A DNA stretch of 34,878 bases from a virus, in the IMG/VR virus record IMGVR_UViG_3300042544_000915, positions 1-34,878 of that record. One strand, given 5' to 3'. The notes beneath the pieces were generated by a model that saw only the letters and a list, made by a program, of their open reading frames with translations, was not told the DNA's origin and ran no database searches. The stretch's first letter is position 1; each line of letters opens with the position of its first letter. Shown one piece after another: positions 1 through 34,873 of the stretch. A program made the position numbers and the translations under genes.

Positions 1-324
1 TAATAAATCAGATGACAAAAACGAAAACCAAATGTTATAAATCGGCACTCCGCTTTGTGTTCCATTAGTCACAATGTTTGTCGTTACATCTGCAACAATA
101 ACCGCGCTGCCACCGTTAGGAATCTTATACATTGTCACGCTACTTATTACCTCACTTGATACTATTTGCGTTTGAAAAGCCACATCGCCAACCTCATAAA
201 TAGGTAAGCAAAAGTCTTTTTGAATCCCACACTCTGTATCAGTTACATACTCGGGTATTCCTAAGTCATTTGCCAAGTTGTAAAAGGTTACAAAACTATT
301 TGGTATATTTAATATCGCTGCCAT
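1..324 (-). CDS. Putative tail-tip protein, 5' part only (same gene as 34001-34873)
   Basis: This is the first 108 codons of the gene given complete at 34001-34873, cut by the window edge because the genome is circular or redundant. Its ATG (324-322) overlaps the TAA of the upstream tail gene as TAATG, which suggests coupled translation. Compared with the other copy, four of the five base differences are silent and one changes Asp to Glu (base 193). It should be counted once, not as a second gene. Confidence 0.85.
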   Translation of the reverse strand, partial: MAAILNIPNSFVTFYNLANDLGIPEYVTDTECGIQKDFCLPIYEVGDVAFQTQIVSSEVISSVTMYKIPNGGSAVIVADVTTNIVTNGTQSGVPIYNIWFSFLSSDLL

Positions 325-9920: not shown

Positions 9921-11507
9921 AAACCTTGGCATCGCTTCATTAGGGTCATCAACTGAATCATTTTGTTTATTAACTACTTTATTTTTAATATGATAAGGAT
10001 TTTTAAATAAAAAAGGAAGTCCAGTTTTGCTGCTCTGTGGATAATTTTGATTTGGGAATCCTTTATACTTTTTGTTTTTTAAAATTACCACTTTCATTTC
10101 ATCCTTTATAACTTTTCTAATATAGCAAGCATCAAATTTATGATTTAATGAAAACCATTGCATTTTAACATCTTTAGCAGTTGCCTCAATAAATTCAATT
10201 CCATCATTATTCATAAAGAAATCATCTAAATTCATTTCGATTTCTTTTCTCAATGTTGATTTACTTTCCTCCATAACAACTTGCAATGATTCGGTTAAGA
10301 TTTCATCCTTTGTAAATACCATTCGTGATTTGCTAAAATCTATTGCAGGAAGTTGTATAAGATATTTTAAAAACTTTGGTATCTCATTAAACAAATCGGT
10401 TTCGATGTTAGTGTTTTTTGCGCCTTTGATAAGTTTAATTTTTCGCACCCAAAATCGAATCTCCTCCTCATCTATTTTCATAAAATCACTTTCTTTGTTG
10501 GTGCAAAAAATAACCTTACCAAAAAAAGGTACTGAATAATGGCTAACAAACTTTTGCGAAACAGACATTGTTTTGGCGGTTGCTATTGATTTTAACTTTT
10601 CAATTGCGTGTTGTTTATCGATGGTCGTTTCATCAATCATAATGATGTTTTTAGTCGCGTACGCATCATTAAAGTTACTTGTAAGGTCACTTGGATTAAT
10701 TAAGGTAGTGTTTTCTCCAAACAACATTTGAATCCAATTTAAGAAAGTTGTTTTACCCGTTTCTCGTTCCGTTGAAACAAGTGCTAATACTGGCAATATT
10801 TGGCGCGGATTTTCGTAAAGGATTTTCATGTAGTTTAGGCCGAGCTGCCATTGGTCACCAAATATGTGATTAATCAATCCCAAGGTAACAGGTATATCAT
10901 TTGTGTTGACCTCATCAATAACGAATTTATGCGAAAACTTTGCGTAAAGGTTATAACAGTTGTTAAGCACTGGAGTATATTCGACATTGTCGGGATAGAT
11001 AGTGAAGTCATCAAACTTGTAAATCATTCCGAGTAATTGTTTGCCATGGTCTTGCTTTATTTCATCTTTTTTCCAAGGTTTAAGAAGTGTGTTTTCAGAT
11101 TTGTATCTGTCTTTTTTGGCTATAACTTTAAAGTAATCAGTTCCAACACGAATATAAGGTATATCTGATTTCATTATTTCAAAATTAACATAAGACATTG
11201 CAGCAAATGAATCGCCTTGGAATTTAACCGCGGCTAAAACCATAAATTTAGAAACTTTGGCGCCAACACCAAGTCGGTAACTATTTTTTTTCATTACATC
11301 AATAGTGTTTAACTTATTGAGAATAAAAGTAGGTTTGTTAAGTTCCTGCGGATCTAAACTATCGGGATTAAGTAGGCATACTTCCGTTTCAGATTTTACG
11401 TTGCATTGTTTGATGCCCTCGAAAATTGAAATAAATGAACCATAGAAGTTAAAATAATCCACCGCGTTAAGTAGCGGGTTTGATTCAGGTTTTTTAAATT
11501 TGTCCAT
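9912..11507 (-). CDS. SF3-like replicative helicase (phage primase-helicase C-terminal type, 531 aa)
   Basis: An ATP-dependent helicase that probably unwinds the origin and fork. Walker A is STERETGKTTF (about residues 245-255), Walker B IIMIDE (288-293), followed by a conserved Asn/Lys region (VIFCTNKESDF), as in DUF5906/D5-like phage helicases. The first 240 residues lack a primase motif, and the primase is encoded separately at 11834-12715. I use the ATG at 11507 rather than the TTG two codons earlier. The start overlaps the preceding 61-aa gene, and the pair follows leader RNA B. Confidence 0.8.
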   Translation of the reverse strand: MDKFKKPESNPLLNAVDYFNFYGSFISIFEGIKQCNVKSETEVCLLNPDSLDPQELNKPTFILNKLNTIDVMKKNSYRLGVGAKVSKFMVLAAVKFQGDSFAAMSYVNFEIMKSDIPYIRVGTDYFKVIAKKDRYKSENTLLKPWKKDEIKQDHGKQLLGMIYKFDDFTIYPDNVEYTPVLNNCYNLYAKFSHKFVIDEVNTNDIPVTLGLINHIFGDQWQLGLNYMKILYENPRQILPVLALVSTERETGKTTFLNWIQMLFGENTTLINPSDLTSNFNDAYATKNIIMIDETTIDKQHAIEKLKSIATAKTMSVSQKFVSHYSVPFFGKVIFCTNKESDFMKIDEEEIRFWVRKIKLIKGAKNTNIETDLFNEIPKFLKYLIQLPAIDFSKSRMVFTKDEILTESLQVVMEESKSTLRKEIEMNLDDFFMNNDGIEFIEATAKDVKMQWFSLNHKFDACYIRKVIKDEMKVVILKNKKYKGFPNQNYPQSSKTGLPFLFKNPYHIKNKVVNKQNDSVDDPNEAMPRFAY

Positions 11508-11679
11508 TGTCAATTTGTTTTATCATTTCTTCTGCAAACATAATAGCTTCAAAACATATACTTCCAATATGATGTTTATCAATATAACCAGAACTTTGTT
11601 TACTTTTTGCAATTAAACTTTGCATTGCTATTACTGCAATGTACTCTAATCTTTCTTGTTTTGTTTTTTGGTTTTTCAT
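11494..11679 (-). CDS. Small helical protein behind leader B (61 aa)
   Basis: A short Lys/Gln-rich, probably all-helical protein with no recognised motif. Its ATG lies 12 bases beyond the U-run of the terminator in leader B, and its 3' end overlaps the helicase gene by 14 bases, so any control by the leader acts on both. It may be a helicase accessory factor, but only context supports this. Confidence 0.65.
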   Translation of the reverse strand: MKNQKTKQERLEYIAVIAMQSLIAKSKQSSGYIDKHHIGSICFEAIMFAEEMIKQIDNGQI

Positions 11680-11691
11680 AATTTTAAAAAT

Positions 11692-11810
11692 AAAAAAGTC
11701 CTAATAGTTAAGTTTGCTTACGAAGCAAGTAAGGGATTCACTCCTTACACTTAACTATTAGGACTCCTAATGTTTTAATGTGAATCTATGTTACTTCGGT
11801 TCGTGACTCC
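11692..11810 (-). ncRNA. Leader RNA B: pseudoknot-terminator attenuator before the helicase operon
   Basis: The predicted transcript of about 118 nt begins near 11810. A 16-bp perfect stem (11765-11750 with 11712-11697) is followed by six U (11697-11692), a strong intrinsic terminator. Inside this stem sit two hairpins: GTAAGG/CCTTAC (11748-11743 with 11734-11729), whose loop shows GTGAATC (11741-11735), and TTGCTT/AAGCAA (11728-11723 with 11719-11714). The loop is complementary to GATTCAC nearer the 5' end (11786-11780). The same plan occurs in leaders A and C. The downstream ATG follows the U-run by 12 bases. Confidence 0.75.
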
Positions 11811-11816
11811 GATGTT

Positions 11817-11849
11817 GCAAATGTACTTTATAATTATCTATTTTGCAAA
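11817..11849 (-). promoter_or_regulatory. Promoter of leader B
   Basis: TTTG (11849-11846), a 20-base spacer and TACATTTGC (11825-11817) on the minus strand fit the Bacteroidota housekeeping consensus exactly. It overlaps the last codons of the primase gene, so the helicase unit has its own promoter. Confidence 0.7.
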
Positions 11850-13261: not shown

Positions 13262-13411
13262 TTATTTTTTTTTAGGGTTTAGTTTATTGTACTCGATTTG
13301 ATTGTAATTAAAGCCATCCACTACCATTGCTTTTTGGATAGCGTGATAAATTGTTTCGGCCCATGTTGGAAGGATTTTCCCGCTTGGGGATTTTACTAAA
13401 AATATTTTCAT
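13262..13411 (-). CDS. Small protein behind leader A (49 aa)
   Basis: An ATG at 13411-13409 opens a 49-codon frame starting MKIFLVKSPSGKILPTWAE and ending in three Lys; its TAA is one base before the next ATG. The start lies 13 bases after the U-run of leader A, the same spacing as for the genes behind leaders B and C, and the spacing to the nuclease gene is that of an operon. No family is recognised. Confidence 0.6.
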   Translation of the reverse strand: MKIFLVKSPSGKILPTWAETIYHAIQKAMVVDGFNYNQIEYNKLNPKKK

Positions 13412-13424
13412 ACTTATAAGAATT

Positions 13425-13516
13425 AAAAAAGCCCGCTAAACTTTGCATAGGATTCCACTTCTATACTCGGTTAAACGGGCCAATACTGTTATGTTTCTAT
13501 AATGTGGAATCGAAAC
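13425..13516 (-). ncRNA. Leader RNA A: pseudoknot-terminator attenuator before the nuclease/primase operon
   Basis: The predicted transcript starts near 13516. GATTCCAC (13511-13504) near its 5' end is complementary over eight bases to GTGGAATC (13458-13451), which lies in the loop of a hairpin GTATAG/CTATGC (13466-13461 with 13450-13445, one G-U). This hairpin is enclosed by GCCCGTTTAAC/GTTTAGCGGGC (13480-13470 with 13441-13431, one mismatch and one wobble), followed by six U (13430-13425). So a terminator carries a loop that the 5' end can bind. The next ATG is 13 bases on. Confidence 0.75.
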
Positions 13517-13522
13517 AACAAT

Positions 13523-13555
13523 GCAAACTTAATGAATCTTACCCAAAGTCGCAAG
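13523..13555 (-). promoter_or_regulatory. Promoter of leader A
   Basis: CTTG (13555-13552), 20 bases, then TAAGTTTGC (13531-13523) on the minus strand match the Bacteroidota promoter form. The -7 element includes the stop codon of the upstream exonuclease gene. Confidence 0.6.
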
Positions 13556-15963: not shown

Positions 15964-16983
15964 TTAAAATAGTGTTGTTTGTGATTGAATTAATTGAATT
16001 CTTTTGTTTGACATTTCTACATATTTATTATTAATATCATATCCTATAAAATTTCTATTTTCTTTGGCGCTCATTGCACATTCAGTTCCACTTCCTGCAA
16101 ATGGAATAAATACAAGGTCATTTGGTCGGCTACAAGTTAAAATTAAAGCCCTTGTAAGCGTTTCAGGTTTGCAGGTGTCGTGGTCATATTTACTTGTAAT
16201 GTGGCCTTGTTGTGAAAATTCTAAAACTTCCTCATACTTATTTGGATTGTAAAAAAATCTGCGTAGGTCTTCATAATCCTTGCGTAGGTCTTCATAATCC
16301 TTGCGTAGGTCTTCATAATCCTTGCGTAGGTCTTCATAATCCTTGCGTAGGTATTCATAATTAAACAACTCTTGCAATTTTACATACCAATCTTTTGTCG
16401 GTAAAGCCCATTGGCTTGTTCTTGCAAACCAATGCGAAGCCATTTTGCTTTTTGTTGCTTCATTTATTTTAGCACAATTAAAACCTGCTTTTTCCATTTC
16501 TCCTATCATATAAGAAATAATTGGCTCCATTATTTCAGTATGTTTTACTCCTATTTGATATGAATAATTTAACTCCGCTAAATCCATTCCATCACTTTCG
16601 TTTGAATACATCAGCAACCTTTCGTTATGTGTATTAAAAGTTCTTGCTAAATTAGGGCTATAATATTGGTATTGTATGCTATCCTTTTTTCTCCATACTA
16701 AAGAATTTTCTAAGTTAAAATACTTGTCAAGTATTATTTGACTGTATGCAATCTTTTTTGAGTTTCCCCACCAAAACAAAGTTCCATTATCAGCAAGTAA
16801 CCGTTTGCACTCAATAGCCCATTTTTCAACATCAATAAGGTAATCATTAAACGATTTCCAAACAAAATCAAACTCGCCTTTTACCTCAAAATATGGAGGG
16901 TCTGCAATAATTAACTGCACTGATTTATCAGCAAGTTTATTATTTATCCAGTCATCGTGATATATCTTATTCAATTCCATCAT
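15964..16983 (-). CDS. Orphan DNA adenine/N4-cytosine methyltransferase, beta class (339 aa)
   Basis: Motif IV DPPY (residues 28-31) precedes motif I FAGSGT (295-300), the order of the beta class, which methylates the amino group of adenine or cytosine using SAM. The middle (about 95-245) should hold target recognition. Residues 212-241 are a perfect heptad-like repeat (RKDYEDL, about four copies), encoded by 21-bp DNA repeats, probably a coiled coil. No restriction nuclease gene is adjacent, so it probably protects phage DNA from host restriction. The start is MM; its first codons overlap the preceding gene by four bases. Confidence 0.88.
   Translation of the reverse strand: MMELNKIYHDDWINNKLADKSVQLIIADPPYFEVKGEFDFVWKSFNDYLIDVEKWAIECKRLLADNGTLFWWGNSKKIAYSQIILDKYFNLENSLVWRKKDSIQYQYYSPNLARTFNTHNERLLMYSNESDGMDLAELNYSYQIGVKHTEIMEPIISYMIGEMEKAGFNCAKINEATKSKMASHWFARTSQWALPTKDWYVKLQELFNYEYLRKDYEDLRKDYEDLRKDYEDLRKDYEDLRRFFYNPNKYEEVLEFSQQGHITSKYDHDTCKPETLTRALILTCSRPNDLVFIPFAGSGTECAMSAKENRNFIGYDINNKYVEMSNKRIQLIQSQTTLF
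16261..16365. repeat. 21-bp tandem repeat inside the DNA methyltransferase gene
   Basis: Four identical 21-bp units start at 16261, 16282, 16303 and 16324 (each beginning gcgtaggtcttcataat), with a fifth that diverges after about 17 bases. The unit is seven codons, so gain or loss of copies keeps the frame and changes only the length of the coiled-coil segment. Base-perfect identity implies recent expansion. Confidence 0.9.
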
Positions 16984-20923: not shown

Positions 20924-21490
20924 ATGAAACCACAACACCAACTTATTACATTCGCAGCCCTATGCCTATTATTAATTATCGGCTTAAACCATTGCGCCAA
21001 AGACAAACCGAAACAGATTCCATTTGACTACAAAGCAGAAGCGGAACTGATTAAAAAACAATTCGGCATCGAGCAGGCAATTTTACTGAATCAGTTGGAA
21101 TCAGTTAACCGAAGACTGCAAACTGCTAACAACGCAAAAGATTCGATTAGACAACGTGAAATATCTTTAACCAACACTAATATAGCTTTGCTTAAGAAGT
21201 TGCGTAATACGCTACCAAAAGAGTGTGATACTGTCTTTGTGCTATGCGATGAGATAATCAATGTTAAGGATAGTAGCTATGCTGCCTTATTTACTGCATT
21301 TCAATTATGTGCTGATGGAAGTAGCATTAAGGATTCTTTAATAGTTGCTTACAAAGCGGAGAATGTAACCGATAGCACTCTGTTAGTGATAAGTAAACAA
21401 GAAACAAAGAAACAACGCAAAGGTAAAATAGCTGCGTGGTGTGTTGGTGGTGCTATGTTTTTAGTTTGGCTTGTTGTTGGATTGAAATAA
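20924..21490 (+). CDS. Putative unimolecular spanin-like lysis protein (188 aa)
   Basis: The N-terminus has a hydrophobic signal-like segment (ITFAALCLLLIIGL) ending in a Cys (LNHC, residue 25 or so), the middle is a long charged coiled coil (about 40-150), and the C-terminus is a transmembrane segment (CVGGAMFLVWLVVGL). A lipidated N-terminus plus a C-terminal inner-membrane anchor is the layout of u-spanins that fuse inner and outer membranes in lysis. The lipobox is poor (N-H before Cys), so an Rz-like protein with two TM segments is the alternative. The ATG at 20924 shares the endopeptidase start context; a longer start at 20894 is possible. Confidence 0.6.
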   Translation: MKPQHQLITFAALCLLLIIGLNHCAKDKPKQIPFDYKAEAELIKKQFGIEQAILLNQLESVNRRLQTANNAKDSIRQREISLTNTNIALLKKLRNTLPKECDTVFVLCDEIINVKDSSYAALFTAFQLCADGSSIKDSLIVAYKAENVTDSTLLVISKQETKKQRKGKIAAWCVGGAMFLVWLVVGLK

Positions 21491-21504
21491 ATTAGTATAT
21501 TTGC
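21474..21504 (+). promoter_or_regulatory. Promoter of leader C
   Basis: TTG (21474-21476), a 19-base spacer and TATATTTGC (21496-21504) match the Bacteroidota form. It lies across the end of the spanin-like gene, giving the last rightward gene its own promoter. Confidence 0.65.
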
Positions 21505-21510
21505 CACGTT

Positions 21511-21588
21511 GTGTAGGAGCAACGAAACGAAATTATAACAAAAGCCTTGACTTTAGCGACCTCCTACTCGCTATCGTTAAGGTTTTTT
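21511..21588 (+). ncRNA. Leader RNA C: pseudoknot-terminator attenuator before the last rightward gene
   Basis: GTAGGAG (21513-21519) near the predicted 5' end is complementary to CTCCTAC (21561-21567), the loop of hairpin AGCGA/TCGCT (21555-21559 with 21568-21572). Below it CCTTGAC pairs with GTTAAGG (21545-21551 with 21576-21582, one G-U), followed directly by six T (21583-21588). The plan equals leaders A and B, but the loop and its partner have a different sequence. The ATG at 21601 follows the U-run by 12 bases. Confidence 0.75.
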
Positions 21589-21600
21589 AATTTAAAAGAA

Positions 21601-21954
21601 ATGGAAAAAATAATTTATTCAGAAAATGGTGGATTAGGTATTATTTTAGACAGCAACGAAAACGAAAATGATTTTATTGATACAACAAAATCATTTATTA
21701 TAAATAATCAAACAATGATGCCTAATGATAAGACTACCTTGTTTGGAATGTATGATGCTCCTGCAATTTATGTGGGTGCTTTAAAAGAGGGCAATAATAA
21801 TTGTATGGTATTTTGTTTAGGTTCAAATGATGATTTATTTGAATCTAAAACTTATTACAGTTGTTTTTATTGGATTAATGAAAGGCGAATAGCTAATAAA
21901 TATAAAGAGGGAACTGTAAGAGATTTTATATTTGTTAATGGTGTTTGGAAGTAA
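21601..21954 (+). CDS. Hypothetical protein controlled by leader C (117 aa)
   Basis: An acidic, soluble protein (MEKIIYSENGGLGIILDSNENENDF) with aromatic-rich strands near the C-terminus (FYWINERR). A frame opens upstream at 21547, inside the terminator hairpin, so the ATG at 21601 is the sensible start. AT-rich codons differ slightly from the lysis genes before it. It is the only rightward gene with an attenuator-like leader, so its expression may be tied to the replication genes behind leaders A and B. Function unknown. Confidence 0.65.
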   Translation: MEKIIYSENGGLGIILDSNENENDFIDTTKSFIINNQTMMPNDKTTLFGMYDAPAIYVGALKEGNNNCMVFCLGSNDDLFESKTYYSCFYWINERRIANKYKEGTVRDFIFVNGVWK

Positions 21955-21964
21955 TAATTTTTAC

Positions 21965-21973
21965 TATCTTTGC
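21965..21973 (+). promoter_or_regulatory. Promoter-like -7 element in the convergent gap
   Basis: TATCTTTGC fits TAnnTTTG; a TTTG lies 17 bases upstream, shorter than ideal. If active it would make an RNA of about 55-65 nt ending at the hairpin 22003-22032 with no coding frame. The wording around it (ttgcc.cgtt) resembles the leader C promoter. Confidence 0.35.
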
Positions 21974-22002
21974 CTCGTTCAATGTTAGTTAAGTTATTAG
22001 GT

Positions 22003-22037
22003 CAAAGCCCTTGCAGAAATGTGAGGGCTTTGTTATT
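22003..22037. terminator. Terminator between convergent operons
   Basis: A perfect nine-base stem caaagccct/agggctttg (22003-22011 with 22024-22032) with a 12-base loop is followed on the plus strand by a T-rich stretch. It lies between the ends of the rightward and leftward units, so it likely stops transcription from both sides. Confidence 0.7.
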
Positions 22038-34004: not shown

Positions 34005-34873
34005 TCGCAGTTAGAGTTAAAGTTGTTAAATGGCGTTTCAAAGATAGTAAAATCTGAGCTCCAAATGTTTACGTTCTGCATTATTTCGGGATAATTATTG
34101 TTATACTCATCCTCAAATCGTGCTTGTATTTGAGTTGTAAAGTTTTCTGGTGTGAAGTAAATGCCATCATGATTCAATGCAATTACTAAGTTTTGATGCA
34201 CTTCCTCGGGCACCTCATCGACATAACCTTTATAACGCTTTGCCAATCGGGCTGACAATAGTTGTCGGCTTCCATCGGGGCGAACGTAAACAGTTTTGTC
34301 GCTGCTAATGTTTGGCTCTTTAAAGTATAATGGTAAACGGATAAAATTATAAGTTAATGATATAAATGGAAACGTGCCAAACGCTCTGTAAACAAATCCA
34401 AATGCGTTAGATGTGTTTATGTATGCAAGTTTAGTGGTTAAGCATTTATCATTAACCTTTTTAAAGCATTGGTTGGATATAAAAAAACTTGGCTCAGCAA
34501 CACCACACGCAAACGCTAACTGAAAACAATCGCCATCATAAATGTTATCTAATAAATCAGATGACAAAAACGAAAACCAAATGTTATAAATCGGCACTCC
34601 GCTTTGTGTTCCATTAGTCACAATGTTTGTCGTTACATCTGCAACAATAACCGCGCTGCCACCGTTAGGAATCTTGTACATTGTAACGCTACTTATTACT
34701 TCACTTGATACTATTTGCGTTTGAAAAGCCACATCGCCAACATCATAAATCGGTAAGCAAAAGTCTTTTTGAATCCCACACTCTGTATCAGTTACATACT
34801 CGGGTATTCCTAAGTCATTTGCCAAGTTGTAAAAGGTTACAAAACTATTTGGTATATTTAATATCGCTGCCAT
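34001..34873 (-). CDS. Putative tail-tip structural protein (290 aa)
   Basis: Complete copy of the gene whose start is also at 324. It follows the 744-aa tail protein with a coupled start and is beta-rich, with several Cys (DTECGIQKDFC; DGDCFQLAFACG; NQCFKKVNDKC) suited to a compact virion protein. The C-terminal 80 residues (PDGSRQLLSARLAKRY; PEEVHQNLVIALNHDG) are more helical. It ends overlapping the glycosyltransferase gene. It could be a distal tail or appendage-attachment protein; the family is unknown. Confidence 0.6.
   Translation of the reverse strand: MAAILNIPNSFVTFYNLANDLGIPEYVTDTECGIQKDFCLPIYDVGDVAFQTQIVSSEVISSVTMYKIPNGGSAVIVADVTTNIVTNGTQSGVPIYNIWFSFLSSDLLDNIYDGDCFQLAFACGVAEPSFFISNQCFKKVNDKCLTTKLAYINTSNAFGFVYRAFGTFPFISLTYNFIRLPLYFKEPNISSDKTVYVRPDGSRQLLSARLAKRYKGYVDEVPEEVHQNLVIALNHDGIYFTPENFTTQIQARFEDEYNNNYPEIMQNVNIWSSDFTIFETPFNNFNSNCE

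Follow-up and report, generated by a model that had tools for sequence, protein, structure and literature searches.

What does the RNA leader in front of a solitary phage gene do, and is that gene what the leader senses? The sequence analysed here (the window) is the whole 34,878-nucleotide IMG/VR virus record IMGVR_UViG_3300042544_000915, in which a 117-aa gene follows a leader, leader C, placed at 21474-21601 (+) in a first-pass annotation and described there as a counterpart of two other leaders, A and B. That annotation also proposed that the gene may hold the clue to what is sensed by the leaders. The proteins of the window include endolysin, portal, large terminase, primase, SSB and RecE-like genes, with no integrase among those scanned, and no cultured relative was matched in INPHARED by DNA, by portal or by the 117-aa protein. 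The ends of the window (1-300 and 34550-34849) form a 300-bp direct repeat of 98% identity, representing either a terminal repeat or an assembly overlap.

Leader C and its two counterparts in the window

Leader C (Table 1) opens with a promoter element of the Bacteroidetes type. Because the G of the Bacteroidetes -7 element is placed at position -5 (PMC6847099), the predicted RNA start is 21508, which is the first base of the 5' hairpin. A spacer separates the 5' hairpin from a second, intrinsic-terminator-like hairpin, whose loop (CTCCTAC) is by direct reading the exact complement of GTAGGAG in the 5' loop. The leader folds with an RNAfold z of -5.45, and 0 of 200 shuffles were as good. Leader C has each of the features by which a kissing-loop terminator is defined here: a promoter, a 5' segment of at least 7 nt complementary to the loop of a U-tract hairpin, and a gene directly behind.

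An unbiased scan of the window for a hairpin with a U-run and an apical loop matching an upstream segment returned exactly three matches, leaders C, B and A, bearing out the shared architecture described in the first-pass annotation. When k≥7 and a promoter were both required, three matches were found in the real window compared to two summed over 40 shuffled windows. The kissing pairs, all read directly, are GATTCAC/GTGAATC in A and GATTCCAC/GTGGAATC in B; GTAGGAG/CTCCTAC in C differs from both, as had been stated, and the placement of the 117-aa gene after the lysis genes, on the strand opposite to A and B, was likewise correct. Leader A precedes a 61-aa gene and a DUF5906 primase, and leader B a 49-aa gene, a nuclease and a BT4734-like_N primase. 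The 16-mer of the leader C 5' hairpin recurs identically in the distant leaders L328, L376 and L377. Because L328, which carries three different leaders, has C's own 5' hairpin (GTTGTGTAGGAGCAAC) before a primase gene, A, B and C are, judged from their sequences, one exchangeable family.

Identity with a known RNA family was rejected, as Rfam gave nothing credible: the whole window had 0 matches in Rfam 15 at the gathering threshold, and permissive E-values returned only sub-threshold chance matches.

Table 1. Positions of the leaders, their parts and the neighbouring genes in the window.
Feature	Position	Strand	Remarks
Leader C, whole	21496-21600	+	Terminator hairpin ends 12 nt 5' of ATG 21601
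Leader C -7 element TATATTTG, Bacteroidetes TAnnTTTG type	21496..21503	+	Consensus and spacing from PMC6847099
Leader C 5' hairpin GTTG-TGTAGGAG-CAAC	21508..21523	+	Loop GTTG[T GTAGGAG]CAAC; from sequence reading, fold and relatives
Leader C kissing segment GTAGGAG	21513-21519	+	Within the 5' hairpin loop
Leader C intrinsic-terminator-like hairpin	21540..21588	+	Loop CTCCTAC 21561-21567; U-run 21583-21588 (six T)
117-aa cargo gene	21601..21954	+	Slot downstream of the lysis genes, occupied by at least nine gene types
Cassette (leader and gene), missing from empty-site relatives	21511..21960	+	About 451 bp; promoter-leader-gene
Duplicated 19-bp -7/start promoter element flanking the cassette	21492-21510 and 21961-21979	+	From empty-site comparison
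Second -7 element copy with strong hairpin (22003-22032), without a gene behind	21965..22032	+	Constant in occupied and empty C sites
Leader B: -7 TAAGTTTG, 5' hairpin GTTTC[GATTCCAC..]GAAAC, terminator hairpin loop GTGGAATC	13424..13531	-	
49-aa gene directly behind leader B	13262..13411	-	
Leader A: -7 TACATTTG, GATTCAC segment, terminator hairpin loop GTGAATC	11691..11825	-	
61-aa gene directly behind leader A	11494..11679	-	

The leader C cassette and its exchangeable genes

All three leaders recur among 33 related records, which were found by portal similarity and read piecewise. The 117-aa gene is absent in 29 of these 33 records, some of which are fragments, and at least eight other gene types stand behind leader C in relatives. 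The genes found in this position comprise C5 methyltransferases, an N6/N4 methyltransferase, Mom (E = 3e-40), an ATPase-GNAT protein, methylase-like proteins and several unknowns, the 117-aa gene among them. In L157, leader C precedes a gene for an ABC/AAA-like ATPase with a fused GNAT domain, which may be another modification or anti-defence gene. Distant relatives of the 117-aa protein were found in L005 (44-48%) and L402 (33%), and no such leader was found in the operons of either, showing that leader and gene are separable. Occurrence of the gene in relatives lacking the leader is the very observation that the first-pass annotation had named as evidence against its proposal, and the 117-aa gene is one cargo among many, not what the leaders sense. 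Its product had no match of note in Pfam, PHROG, PADLOC or PDB (DUF6943 only at E = 0.13), and its AlphaFold model was unusable (pLDDT 55). Judged only by its position and the company it keeps, it probably serves in anti-restriction or host takeover. An N6/N4 DNA methyltransferase encoded at 15964-16983 of the window, with four 21-bp tandem copies inside its frame (16227-16352), is a second modification gene, outside the C slot.

Relatives with an empty site match the window up to 21510 and again from 21961 onwards, the two matching parts overlapping by 19 bp, and 15 distinct empty sites lack leader and gene together. Because homology breaks at these two positions and the 19-bp element is duplicated there, the cassette of about 451 bp appears to have been inserted or exchanged through promoter homology. 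Phage morons are accessory genes with their own promoter inserted in a collinear genome, and the phage Mu mom gene is tightly regulated, by Dam methylation and Com. The leader C cassette likewise pairs an accessory gene with its own promoter, is present or absent in otherwise collinear relatives, and carries Mom and methyltransferases as cargo; Mu mom differs in being controlled by Dam methylation and Com, without a kissing terminator. Type III toxin-antitoxin loci were also considered, but leader C contains no tandem RNA repeats, and its cargo consists of methyltransferases, Mom and unknowns, with no ToxN-like toxin.

Downstream of the cassette, the second -7 element and its strong hairpin are either a small RNA gene or a lysis-transcript terminator. 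No kissing partner was found for this unit, and its pairing with leader C was no better than shuffled (41/200).

Conservation of the pairing and the wider family

Pattern scans of IMG/VR yielded 58 loci for leader B and 23 for leader C; since parts of both hairpins were prescribed in these patterns, allele frequencies derived from them are lower bounds on diversity. Counting the window copy, 55 B loci have the complementary loop, two are cut by a contig end before the loop and two are chance matches, and the complementary loop is retained at every C locus. Across 25 distinct leader B sequences, the 30 pairs are 98.5% paired and 14 of them are changed on both sides, while the kissing helix is 100% paired with four of its eight pairs changed on both sides. 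Overall, 139 cells of the structure, including the kissing helix, are changed on both sides, where cells count sequences and not events; like all the evidence here, they derive from sequence data, mostly of metagenomic contigs, including some near-duplicates. The covariation score was 0.47 compared to at most 0.083 in slid versions, and no shuffle reached it. At leader A, one kissing pair is flipped from C-G to G-C between two alleles (GATTCAC/GTGAATC and GATTGAC/GTCAATC) in an RNA that is otherwise 97% identical.

For leader C, four pairs of the terminator stem are changed on both sides among 23 relatives, and the seven pairs of the kissing helix are invariant in the same 23 distinct relatives. 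A scan anchored on the upstream promoter recovered GTAGGAG in 18 of 18 C leaders, and a scan leaving two loop positions free found no other C allele with a kissing loop; because of these two results, the constancy of the C loop is more than an artefact of the query. An apparent second C-loop allele (GTTGTGTCGGAGCAAC in L364) was rejected as a chance match inside coding sequence. As its kissing pairs are invariant, support for pairing in C is inherited from its relatives. The earlier statement that the pairing is kept rather than the base sequence thus holds across A, B and distant relatives, where compensatory changes are seen, and does not follow from C itself. In addition, a minus-strand match in L219 (offset 4781) is a decayed leader C in which the 5' kissing loop is deleted and the terminator kept; no start codon was seen close behind it and no gene was found there.

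The kissing-terminator architecture was traced to well over a hundred IMG/VR loci, with 184 loci giving 69 distinct leaders compared to two after shuffling. A promoter-anchored scan returned many unrelated phages. Of the 71 distinct regions downstream, 12 contained a kissing terminator; shuffles averaged 1.8 (maximum 6), and controls with 5' segments swapped between loci also averaged 1.8 (maximum 5). Alleles include CGTGAGA/TCTCACG, CGTAGGA/TCCTACG, GCGTGGAAA/TTTCCACGC, CTTCTCAC/GTGAGAAG, ACCCGCCAA/TTGGCGGGT, CTCTCAC/GTGAGAG, CTACCAC/GTGGTAG and GGTCTGAA/TTCAGACC, and the purine-rich strand lies in either loop, depending on the leader. Two near-identical leaders, L326 (CTCTCAC/GTGAGAG) and L327 (CTACCAC/GTGGTAG), are set apart essentially by their kissing pairs.

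Most often the leaders stand before a replication operon, typically with a small ORF first and then a replication initiator-like protein, nuclease or primase/helicase; these names were read from the sequence or, for the window, taken from Pfam/PHROG. Of the 50 loci that have the BT4734-like primase and sufficient sequence ahead of its operon, 49 carry a leader there (45 and 4 from two scans); the remaining locus looks chimeric, its upstream sequence being unrelated. Bacterial genomes yielded no BT4734-like primase relative, and leader B occurred in them only in one phage-like contig (L336) from a Bacteroidetes MAG, the leader being absent at the remaining 11 pattern matches. The leader C model gave one weak match there (L403), without the kissing pair.

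Several further arrangements were noted. Leaders at L222:4540-4690 and L257:4436-4590 stand before an HNH-like gene, and their 5'-loop sequence (AATCCTACA or AAGCTAC) has a third copy immediately ahead of the ATG, which has changed together with the other copies; the leader also seems to be crossed by an open frame. On the minus strands of L179 and L233, kissing-terminator leaders with larger 5' loops (GTAGCAG, GCACTAC) lie before or near genes that look ParB-like by eye. In L361 (338-500), a complementary pair (AGGGTTGGC/GCCAACCCT), flagged on both strands, lies upstream of a further leader in the same phage.

Proposed control of transcription read-through and competing explanations

Leader C is probably a transcription attenuator of a kissing-loop terminator family that is mobile together with its gene and in which the kissing pair sets read-through. 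RNA polymerase would start at the TAnnTTTG promoter and at once make the 5' hairpin and then the terminator hairpin, and the complementary loops of the two could join in a compact kissing pseudoknot. By default, transcription would end at 21588 and release an RNA of about 82 nt, and the gene behind would be reached only by read-through, at a level set by the kissing pair. Leader and gene travel as a promoter-to-gene cassette, in a slot carrying mostly DNA-modification (anti-restriction) genes, and the same device is found before the replication operons of many other Bacteroidota-type phages, with the pairing sequence swapped between near-identical phages. In nascent B and C RNA, before the 3' arm of the terminator is made, the predicted best fold pairs the 5' segment with the future loop; the kissing pair may thus already exist when the terminator closes, and could slow or direct that closure. 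Unlike in classic attenuators, no clear antiterminator was seen in leaders B and C; in leader A, an ATTAGGA copy could pair with the terminator arm.

No published description of such leaders was found in a literature search whose coverage lay largely outside subscription journals, and the kissing-loop terminator leaders look like an undescribed family of RNA brakes. In plan, leader C resembles three known systems and is counted as a variant of RNA attenuation. In phage P4, the replication genes are controlled by premature termination through pairing of the CI RNA, which is related to the P1 c4 antisense RNA, with seqA and seqC (PMC4825925). As is proposed here, premature termination ahead of phage replication genes is governed by pairing between RNA segments in the operon's leader, with a small RNA coming from the leader itself (PMC4825925). 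The P4 RNA, however, is processed and internal, with complements on both sides, whereas here the partner is the intrinsic terminator's own loop, the 5' hairpin begins at the RNA start, and the device also occurs in accessory-gene cassettes. Replication-operon context and complementarity would suit a trans-acting RNA of the P4/P1 C4 immunity type; Rfam showed no match to a described C4 RNA family in the whole window. The pT181 attenuators, in which kissing contact promotes the terminator, share a 5' sensing hairpin, loop-loop kissing, an intrinsic terminator before a replication gene and specificity residing in the loops (PMC4878617), but they use a countertranscript and an antiterminator. No antiterminator is evident in leaders B and C, and no countertranscript promoter of the TANNTTTGC type (TAnnTTTGC) was found on the minus strand between 21426 and 22400. 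IncI-type plasmids (IncI/IncK/IncB, with RNAI and a rep pseudoknot) also combine kissing loops with a pseudoknot in a replication-gene leader, and small changes in their RNA loops create compatibility groups of near-identical replicons (PMC10724649). These plasmids differ in acting on translation through an RNA from the opposite strand, whereas in the present leaders one of the two loops belongs to a transcription terminator.

Should the attenuator reading hold, a protein-independent RNA switch, absent from RNA libraries, would be common to uncultivated Bacteroidota phages, heading their replication operons and sitting in gene-swapping cassettes. Such a switch would allow self-recognition through RNA among phages to be tested readily, and would offer natural orthogonal kissing attenuators for Bacteroidota synthetic biology, and a handle on how phages restrain imported DNA-modification genes.

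The exchange of alleles at leader B bears on whether the pairing acts solely within one molecule. In pairwise comparisons of B loci, the terminator hairpin is 67-75% identical while the flanks are 87-100% identical; for L130, for example, identity is 89% upstream, 95% in the promoter, 67% in the hairpin, 100% after the hairpin and 87% in the gene. L126 and L129 carry exactly the window's B allele with unrelated upstream sequence (40%). Among three B alleles of close relatives, self-pairing is predicted at -10.3 to -12.6 kcal/mol and cross-pairing at -1.0 to -5.7 kcal/mol, and the frequencies of the B alleles are 24:17:13:1. As recognition in trans would yield discrete, mutually non-pairing and balanced alleles, as in plasmid incompatibility groups, this swapping suggests such recognition. 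It could also be neutral recombination under a structure-only constraint, and the fixed loop of C by itself does not fit diversifying selection. A pair that acts only in cis, simply stabilising the terminator or the RNA 5' end, so that any complementary loops suffice and allele differences reflect neutral drift or recombination, is a serious contender, although we would not bet on it. It accommodates the retention of pairing under sequence change at leader B, the co-transcriptional intermediate of B and C that already favours pairing within the same molecule, and the fixed C loop, which requires no trans partner. It accounts less well for a peak of divergence inside the leader between conserved flanks, for a few balanced alleles in place of continuous drift, and for a small loop vocabulary that is reused across unrelated phages (for example, GGTCTCAC and GGTTCGAC).

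Under the attenuator reading, leader RNA from another genome copy could bind the 5' loop first, so that read-through would change with genome dose, in the same allele only. That leader RNAs from other genome copies also read the pairing in trans, for dose sensing or self-recognition and much as P4 CI RNA or plasmid copy-control RNAs do, is put forward tentatively, as the likeliest reason for the swapping. It is rather unlikely that the kissing pair goes further and serves as an RNA barcode, by which the terminated RNA would recognise same-allele leaders only, for dose feedback or superinfection exclusion between otherwise near-identical phages, and which would also be a portable brake on horizontally exchanged anti-restriction genes.

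A promoter followed by a terminator would yield a discrete RNA of about 82 nt, and the unit at 21965-22032 is a similar promoter and hairpin without a gene; both would suit a functional sRNA acting on host or phage targets, with the gene behind co-transcribed at a low level. We consider this improbable, as leader C comes and goes with its gene at the 15 empty sites, the sole leader seen without a gene (L219) has lost its kissing loop, and the B loops vary, unlike an sRNA seed for a conserved target. The first-pass annotation had further proposed that GTAGGAG/CTCCTAC hides or imitates a Shine-Dalgarno contact, and the loop CTCCT does resemble the anti-Shine-Dalgarno core, the window's C loop reading ACCTCCT. 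The flanking ACC is not conserved among relatives, however, other alleles (GTGAGACC, GTGGAATC, GTCGAACC, GTGAATC and TTGGCGG) have no such resemblance, and Bacteroidetes mRNAs naturally lack Shine-Dalgarno sequences (PMC6847099), which leaves this proposal very little room. Sensing or binding of the leaders by the 117-aa protein, favoured by adjacency and nothing more, is the least credible reading and already largely refuted, as no such leader was found in the operons of the protein's distant relatives and the gene is missing from most compared relatives, where unrelated genes replace it behind an unchanged leader.
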